Source: Conexibacter sp. SYSU D00693 (GTDB lineage: Bacteria; Actinomycetota; Thermoleophilia; Solirubrobacterales; Solirubrobacteraceae). From it: a stretch of 64,000 nt of DNA. Below are positions 32,424 to 38,080 of this stretch, in pieces. Each line of letters opens with the position of its first letter. Positions within the stretch are counted from its first letter, which is position 1. The stretch lies in the NCBI RefSeq assembly GCF_017084525.1, contig NZ_CP070950.1, forward strand, positions 3,782,001-3,846,000, given 5' to 3'. Made by a program: the position numbers and the translations under genes. A model generated the notes under the pieces. The model did no database searches, had not been told where the DNA came from, and saw nothing but the letters and a program-made list of their open reading frames with translations.

Positions 32424-32432
32424 TGCTACCAT
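32424..32432 (+). promoter_or_regulatory. rpsL promoter, extended -10, near-leaderless
   Basis: TGCTACCAT fits TGnTAnnnT and ends 10 bases before the rpsL ATG, so transcription would start within a few bases of the start codon. No ribosome-binding site is seen in that gap. No convincing -35. Confidence 0.55.
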
Positions 32433-32442
32433 CCCGCGCCGC

Positions 32443-32844: not shown

Positions 32845-33315
32845 GTGCCGCGCCGCGCAGCCGCCACCATCCGGCCCATCGAGCCGGACGCCGTCCACCG
32901 CTCCCGCCTGGTCCAGCAGGTCATCAACAAGGTGATGCTGGACGGCAAGAAGTCCACCGCCGAGCGCATCGTCTACGACGCGCTGGCGATCCTGGGCGAG
33001 AAGACCGGCAAGGACCCGGTCGAGCAGCTCGAGGCCTCGCTCAAGGCCCTCACCCCGGCCCTCGAGGTCCGCTCCCGCCGCGTCGGCGGCGCGACCTACC
33101 AGGTCCCGGTCGAGGTCCCGCCGCGCCGCGCCCGCACCCTCGCGGTGCGCTGGCTCGTCACCTTCGCCCGTCAGCGCCGCGAGCGCACGATGGCCCAGCG
33201 CCTCGCCAACGAGCTCCTGGACGCCCAGAACTCCCAGGGCGGCGCCTTCAAGCGCAAGGACGACATCTACCGCATGGCGCAGGCCAACAAGGCCTTCGCG
33301 CACTACCGCTGGTAG
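32845..33315 (+). CDS. rpsG: 30S ribosomal protein S7
   Basis: A 156-residue S7, the primary head-assembly protein of the 30S subunit. Seen: [25 protein letters not shown]-type region as [19 protein letters not shown], and [17 protein letters not shown]. The usual C-terminal HRYRW is here HYRW, normal. Start GTG 32845 is three bases after the rpsL stop. In most bacteria fusA follows directly, but here a repeat module and an opposed membrane-protein gene intervene. Confidence 0.97.
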
Positions 33316-33342: not shown

Positions 33343-33372
33343 CGAACGCCCGGCCGCTTGGCCGGGCGTTCG
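33343..33372 (+). terminator. Hairpin terminator after rpsG
   Basis: A perfect 13-bp stem of CGAACGCCCGGCC with GGCCGGGCGTTCG and a GCTT loop, 27 bases after the rpsG stop, followed by TCGTTGTG. Confidence 0.8.
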
Positions 33373-33390: not shown

Positions 33391-33800
33391 GCGTTCCGCG
33401 CGGGCGTGGGCGGTGGCCGGCGCCGTCGCGGTCTCGCGGTGAGGGAGGGGAGCCGGGTTCGCGGGGCGGGCGGTCGCCGGCCGCCGGCGACCCTGGAGTT
33501 GACCGCCCGTTGCGCGTGACCCTGGAGTTGACCGCCGCATGGGCGGTGAAACTTCAGGCTCGCGGGCGCGGCGGCGATGACCCTGGGGTTCGGGGCCTGG
33601 GAGGACCTCAACCCCAGGCTCGCGGAGCCCCGTCGACGCTGACCCTGCGATCTCCGGTCTCCCACGCCGGAGACGACAGGGTCACGGCCGACGGACCGCC
33701 GGGGCGCCTCGCGAAACCACGCGCGCGCCGGCCGGTTCCCCTCCTCAGTGCGAGACAGCGGCGGCTCGCGAGCAGCGAACGCCGGAACGGAGCTCCCTCT
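33391..33800. repeat. Intergenic repeat module with hairpin array
   Basis: This gap holds no gene. It starts GCGTTCCGCG, then TCGCGGTGAGGGAGGGG, then a series of hairpins whose arms begin GACCCTG and end CAGGGTC or CAGGCTC (around 33490-33690, for example GACCCTGGAGTTGACCGCC twice, and a stem TGACCCTG...CAGGGTCA at 33639-33687). Near the end comes CCGGTTCCCCTCCTCAGTG and AACGGAGCTCC, which runs into the stop of the convergent gene. The same motif order is seen at 56651-56940 and in part at 6124-6420. Confidence 0.75.
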
Positions 33801-34554
33801 ACGTCGGGTCGTCCGCGAACCAGTCGTCCGGCTCGCGCCGCCCCGTCGGCGCGTCGTCCTCGGCCGGCTCGCGGTCACCGCCACGCCGGCGCCGCCGCGG
33901 AAGGCGCCGCGCTCGCGGGGCACGCGGCGCGGCGCGACCCTCCGGCGCGGTCCGGCCCTCCCGCCGCTCCCGCTCCCGCCCGGCGCCCGCGGCACCCCCG
34001 GCCCCCGCCGCCGCCCCCGCGGGCAGCAGGAACAACCCGCCACCCGCCAGCAGCAGCAGCGCGCCGCCCGCGGTCTCGAGGTAGTAGCCCGACTCCGGCC
34101 CGGCCGTCGCCTGCTCGTAGAGCTCGCCGACCTGCCCGGTGTCGTCCAGCGCGGGCAGGTCCCAGACGAGCGCGATCGCCAGCGCCGCCAGTCCGGCCGC
34201 GACGAGCGCCAGGGCGGCCGGCCGCGCGCCGCGCAGCGCCCCCGCGAGCATCACGAGCGCGAAGCCCGCGAGCACGAGGAGGGCCGGGCCGTGGCGCTCC
34301 CAGCCGGTGCGCTCCGTGTCGATGTCGGCCGCGATCTCGGAGGTGGTCAGGACCTCGATCTGGAGGACGAGCGAGAACGTCGCGACGACGAGCGCCACGC
34401 ACCCCGCGAGCCCGATGAGCGCGAGCAGCGCACGCACCGCGGAGGACGTCGGGACGCGGACGGCGGAGGTCAGCCCGGAGCGCCCCGGGGCATCCCGAGA
34501 TGCCGAGAGCGCCTTGCTATCATCGTCCTCCGCCCCGCGGTCTGGCGTGCTCAC
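33799..34554 (-). CDS. Four-pass membrane protein, family not recognised
   Basis: A 251-residue protein. Segments that could cross the membrane lie at about residues 40-62, 90-108, 112-130 and 160-180. The N-terminal 35 residues are hydrophilic ([15 protein letters not shown]). The C-terminal 70 residues are Ala/Gly/Arg-rich, then acidic ([24 protein letters not shown], in part DDWFADDPT). A TM1-TM2 loop ([20 protein letters not shown]) would be extracytoplasmic. An in-frame GTG at 34437 would drop the hydrophilic N-terminus and free the region holding a putative fusA promoter. It interrupts the usual rpsG-fusA order. Function unknown. Confidence 0.65.
34515..34523 (+). promoter_or_regulatory. 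Putative fusA promoter, extended -10
   Basis: TGCTATCAT matches TGnTAnnnT. It would give a leader of about 170 nt before fusA. It lies inside the 5' coding part of the opposed gene if that gene starts at 34554. No -35 recognised. Confidence 0.45.
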
Positions 34555-34642
34555 GCGTGCCCTCCCACGGAGCGCCTGTTGCCCGCCGATGCGGACCTCG
34601 AGGACATAGCGCGACGACCCAGGGACACCCCTGTCGTACGCG

Positions 34643-34667
34643 CGGGCCCGAGGGGCCCGTTTTCTTT
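34643..34667 (+). terminator. Terminator-like hairpin with T-rich tail in the fusA leader (possible attenuator)
   Basis: CGGGCCC (34643-34649) pairs with GGGCCCG (34653-34659) across a GAG loop and is followed at once by TTTTCTTT. T-runs are rare in this genome, so this is a textbook intrinsic terminator. It lies 32 bases before the fusA ATG. The nearest plus-strand gene upstream, rpsG, already has its own terminator, so attenuation of fusA is the simplest reading. A competing stem CAGGG-ACAC-CCCTG lies just upstream. Confidence 0.7.
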
Positions 34668-34698
34668 GCCCGCACTAGAGAAGAGCCGACCCAGAGAC

Positions 34699-36798
<2,100 letters not shown>

Positions 36799-36895: not shown

Positions 36896-38080
<1,185 letters not shown>

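Follow-up and report, generated by a model that had tools for sequence, protein, structure and literature searches.

How does a bacterium express the essential gene for elongation factor G (EF-G) when an intrinsic terminator stands almost directly in front of it? The question is raised by a stretch of 64,000 nucleotides (nt) of Conexibacter sp. SYSU D00693 (contig NZ_CP070950.1, positions 3,782,001 to 3,846,000; hereafter the window), in which fusA (34699..36798, plus strand, recognized by its Pfam EF-G domains) begins 32 nt after the end of a terminator composed of a 7-bp GC stem and the T tail TTTTCTTT (34643..34667, plus strand). A gap of 32 nt is too short to hold a second promoter, and fusA therefore needs to be expressed by read-through, which is why we regard the terminator as an attenuator. 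An earlier note on this DNA, made from the sequence alone, had described here the layout of an attenuator sensing the state of translation. This description is supported by what we found in related genomes and in folding models: a promoter, a short in-frame open reading frame (mini-ORF) and a terminator are conserved together, a competing helix covaries in other lineages, and the predicted folding depends on where the ribosome stands. The leader is thus probably a ribosome-mediated transcription attenuator of the fusA(-tuf) operon. The gene for elongation factor Tu (EF-Tu), tuf, identified from its reading frame, is the next one 3' of fusA (36896..38080, plus strand) and probably shares its control.

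The leader in Solirubrobacterales

We took the DNA 5' of fusA from 60 relatives belonging to the same genus, family and order. Most of them have the same succession of parts: an extended -10 element TGCTAnnnT, the mini-ORF, a spacer of 30 to 40 nt, and a GGGCCC-type terminator with its T tail. In the window, the extended -10 of the putative fusA promoter is TGCTATCAT (34515..34523, plus strand), and transcription is predicted to start about 7 nt past it, at 34530 (±2). The mini-ORF, ATGCGGACCTCGAGGACATAG, has six codons (34589..34609, plus strand, MRTSRT*), and the terminator pairs CGGGCCC with GGGCCCG around a GAG loop (34643-34659), before the T tail at 34660-34667. All these elements, as well as a CAGGG/CCCTG stem in the spacer and the gap to fusA, lie to the base where the earlier note had placed them. 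Of 95 leaders, 94 have an extended -10 (TGnTAnnnT) 34 to 107 nt 5' of the mini-ORF, where shuffled sequences would give 0.8. Terminator-like sites alone are unremarkable (2 observed versus 1.0 expected in 4 kb), and a search of Rfam with the leader gave no match to any family, so that the case for a leader rests on comparison. A 5' hairpin is also seen shortly past the predicted start (about 34541-34561 in the window), its loop often being CTCA; 49 of the 95 leaders have this tetranucleotide before the mini-ORF, compared with 25.8 in shuffles.

A covariance model comprising mini-ORF and terminator was built from the leaders of 43 relatives. It gives the leader of the window a score of 77 bits, and 52 of 61 near relatives each yield a single match, placed before fusA; the hairpin and its T tail, the conservation of which the earlier note had made the test of its proposal, are therefore kept at this place. 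In a sample of the class, 116 of 399 genomes carry the leader and, among the matches listed, all belong to the order of the window, Solirubrobacterales; in a sample of the phylum, it was found in 10 of 397, all of them Solirubrobacterales. Among 80 listed fusA loci from named genomes, mostly of other phyla, a single one has the leader, in a metagenome-assembled genome of Solirubrobacterales (L089), and it was not found at the 79 others, which represent many phyla. Weak second matches of the model, in genomes G046 and G012, do not lie before translation genes. Within this order of soil bacteria, promoter, mini-ORF and terminator are conserved jointly across four families.

In families f5 to f7 of the class, the gap between rpsG and fusA is 7 to 121 nt, with no promoter-terminator leader, and two genomes within the order (G029 and G031) have a fusA at most about 115 nt after rpsG, with no leader there. 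Judging from these arrangements, the simplest history would be that the ancestor of the order separated fusA from rpsG, and acquired the promoter and the attenuator. In the window, rpsG ends at 33315, and folding predicts a strong hairpin with a weak T tract just after it (33343..33372, plus strand), at which the rpsL-rpsG operon terminates; the earlier note was right in considering the upstream operon as already closed. Further on lies an ORF on the minus strand, with a weak match to DUF7937 and an uncertain true start (33799..34554). Because this hairpin and the opposite-strand ORF intervene, fusA is severed from the rpsL-rpsG promoter. DNA related to the ORF is found at the same place in several relatives and, if its listed start holds, the ORF overlaps the fusA promoter. 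As for rpsL itself, an extended -10-like element TGCTACCAT (32424-32442) ends about 10 nt before its start codon, a position that suggests a nearly leaderless mRNA.

The mini-ORF and its last codon

An in-frame mini-ORF of five to nine codons, ending about 30 to 40 nt before the terminator, was present in all 120 leaders read. The first 95 mini-ORFs were chosen by a rule favouring ATAG or ATAA ends, and the remaining 25 were read without that rule, from model matches or by eye, all with an in-frame stop. They amount to 100 distinct mini-ORFs, of which 89 have six codons, 6 have seven, 3 have five, and one each has eight and nine. The start is ATG in 95, the other five (GTG in 3, TTG in 2) being alternative start codons, and the stop is TAG in 73, TAA in 21 and TGA in 6. 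The typical form in most relatives is ATG GAG ACC nnn nnn ACA TAG, and the peptide is loosely conserved (METSST, MERFTT, METLQN, MQTSGT). The listed peptides share no stretch of repeated codons for the same residue, and a conserved arrest motif such as RLR is absent. Two candidates, a leader built on an amino-acid run and a known arrest peptide, are ruled out by this loosely kept sequence. A third, a release-factor sensor taking the identity of the stop as its signal, was dropped, since all three stop codons occur.

The most constant features of the leader are the start codon, frame, length and stop of the mini-ORF. This constancy speaks against control of the attenuator by a trans-acting factor to which the mini-ORF would be incidental. 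Ribosomal protein S7, proposed for rpsL leaders and acting as a repressor in the Escherichia coli str operon, would be the obvious candidate; given that no Rfam family matches, and that fusA no longer lies behind rpsG here, we find such control unlikely.

The last sense codon of the window's mini-ORF, ACA (34604..34606, plus strand), is absent from the 2,687 codons of ten window genes. A-ending codons as a whole number 4 among these 2,687, and make up 1.8% of the first 200 fusA codons in 34 relatives, yet they stand last in 77 of the 100 distinct mini-ORFs. A ribosome might accordingly wait at this near-unused codon, with the supply of its cognate tRNA setting the switch, and the genome does contain a tRNA-Thr(UGU) gene. 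We nevertheless hold a codon sensor to be improbable: the last residue is free to vary (Thr, Arg, Ala, Gly, Lys, Ile, Pro and Glu are all used), one subclade has common codons, and T-ending codons, although also uncommon, are never used. Because the amino acid varies and T-ending codons are avoided, it seems to be the base A preceding the stop that is selected, rather than a single amino acid or rarity as such. The reason may be stop context, a slow codon or a contact with RNA.

Competing helix and ribosome position

Between the stop of the mini-ORF and the terminator, the window is predicted to form a hairpin, P2 (34610..34642, plus strand), the core of which pairs CAGGG (34620-34624) with CCCTG (34629-34633). 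It is supported by folding, by covariation in other lineages and by the stability of the spacer, which exceeds that of shuffled sequences in the window's genus, g1 (mean z of -2.5), and in genus g8 (-2.4). In families f2, f3 and f4, and in several genera of f1, the segment after the mini-ORF stop corresponds to a competing antiterminator helix: about 7 to 15 nt after the stop lies a motif (CCGGGC, CAGGGC or TTCGGGC) whose complement is found in the terminator's 5' arm and loop (GCCCGG, GCCCTG or GCCCGAA). Over 33 distinct sequences, 81.8% of the cells of this helix are paired, compared with at most 46% when it is slid. Double-sided changes number 21 versus 12.1 in shuffles, and the covariation score is 0.192 versus 0.118 (0/500 shuffles in both cases). 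The covariation signal comes mainly from differences between families, and pairing between spacer and terminator is likewise significant across families, and not within them, in a permutation test. Pairing of the region before the mini-ORF with the terminator was not supported. RNAalifold, applied to plain MAFFT alignments, saw only the terminator, because loop lengths and helix registers differ among lineages.

The probability of the terminator stem was calculated at folding equilibrium, leaving out the kinetics of transcription, for the ribosome-free leader and for a leader blocked over 30 nt, either at the start of the mini-ORF, at its stop or close to the 5' end. For 37 genera, the mean probability is 0.62 with no ribosome, 0.64 with the block at the start, 0.61 with the block near the 5' end, and 0.86 with the block at the stop, whereas shuffled leaders remain flat, at about 0.72 throughout. 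The stop block gives a higher value than no block in 25 genera and a lower one in 4 (Wilcoxon p = 1.6e-5), and exceeds the start block in 26 genera versus 5 (p = 4e-4). The same calculation was also made on all 95 leaders. In these models, native leaders deviate from shuffles in the manner expected of an attenuator, and formation of the terminator is predicted to depend on the position of the ribosome. Terminators between operons are common, and chance alone would yield one in 4 kb, so that an unregulated terminator, simply insulating or constitutively leaky, might have been proposed. The location of the site, 3' of fusA's own conserved promoter and after a conserved mini-ORF, and a folding that responds to the ribosome where shuffles do not, make it very unlikely.

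A ribosome on the start codon reaches to about nt 16 of the mini-ORF, and a ribosome at the stop about 10 nt beyond it. The length of six codons suits a switch, because the first leaves the segment after the stop free and the second covers it.

Several observations weigh against the attenuator. In g1 and near relatives, the spacer hairpin with its CAGGG/CCCTG core extends just to the foot of the terminator, which it barely overlaps (about 1 nt). The earlier note had taken this stem for the competitor of the terminator: in our models the stem is real, but in the window it is not clearly a competitor by itself; competition is clear in other lineages. The folding shift in the window's genome (G000) is modest, from 0.71 with no ribosome to 0.76 with the start block and 0.88 with the stop block, and variation of the competing helix within single families is too small for significance. 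No excess of Shine-Dalgarno sequences is found before the mini-ORF (0.19 versus 0.14 in shuffles), nor before fusA itself. Some genomes of the order (G014, G025, G047, G279 and G380) have promoter and terminator without a mini-ORF. Finally, in genus g8 it is tuf alone that has the leader before it (L205 in G013, L196 in G293 and L207 in G367). Feedback on EF-G is therefore not the whole story and, with a leader that can also stand before another gene, the signal is more probably elongation in general than EF-G itself.

Two side observations belong here. Shortened leaders devoid of the mini-ORF represent natural losses (L264 in G279, L266 in G380, L019 in G014 and L269 in G047). The fusA of G013, found at another place and devoid of the leader, codes for an EF-G that is more divergent (72% identity over 200 amino acids).

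Proposed mechanism and related systems

Under ribosome-mediated attenuation, the events could be as follows. RNA polymerase would start at about 34530, a ribosome would load on the mini-ORF (34589-34609), and the polymerase would then meet the terminator (34643-34667). Should the end of the mini-ORF not be reached in time, either because no ribosome has loaded or because one is held near the start, the helix following the stop would compete with the terminator, and fusA would be transcribed. A ribosome coming rapidly to the last codon or the stop would cover the segment behind the stop, the terminator would form, and the RNA would end at about 136 nt. Slow elongation would thereby raise the output of EF-G (and EF-Tu), and fast elongation would lower it; we infer both this direction of control in vivo and elongation speed as the signal. 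A more specific proposal, which we put forward tentatively and think somewhat less probable than its contrary, is that the leader is a dedicated gauge of elongation speed, through which the rate of translocation itself would feed back on the synthesis of EF-G and EF-Tu. The six-codon ORF would then be just long enough to free the switch segment when the ribosome is at the start, and to cover it when the ribosome is at the end.

Attenuation by a leader ORF is classical. The trp, his and ilv leader-peptide attenuators share with the fusA leader a promoter, a short leader ORF, an intrinsic terminator before the first gene and, as regards families f2 to f4 and some genera of f1, mutually exclusive helices. 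Unlike them, the fusA leader has an ORF of only six codons that lacks repeated codons for any one amino acid, it would control translation elongation factors, and a ribosome at the stop is predicted to mean off.

Also comparable are the upstream ORF (uORF) attenuators of the ribosome-rescue and resistance genes vmlR (PMC9226507) and hflXr (PMC6310831), where the position of a ribosome on a short uORF chooses between terminator and antiterminator, as is predicted for the fusA leader, and the gene controlled also acts on the ribosome. Both genes are induced by drug-stalled ribosomes, and the hflXr uORF has 14 codons with an RLR arrest motif (PMC9226507, PMC6310831), whereas fusA is an essential housekeeping gene, with a mini-ORF whose peptide is not conserved in sequence. 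In streptococci, an attenuator was predicted before fusA, within the rpsL-leader group, with S7 as the suggested effector and no uORF described (PMC2965389). It has in common with the present leader a terminator-based attenuator before fusA, but belongs to a different phylum, with no shared sequence or structure known, and a uORF is present here. In E. coli, the supply of EF-G is also governed, by autogenous control of the str operon through S7 (PMC10931766), but this control is translational and protein-mediated, and acts between rpsL and rpsG. Our literature search, mostly without subscription papers, did not yield any earlier description of a leader-ORF attenuator of fusA, nor of the leader in Solirubrobacterales.

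Apart from S7 control of the str operon, little is understood of how bacteria match the supply of elongation factors to the demand of translation. The Solirubrobacterales seem to offer a compact, natural and order-wide leader that apparently reads the progress of a ribosome and sets the transcription of fusA and tuf accordingly, with many sequence variants and natural losses available for comparison.
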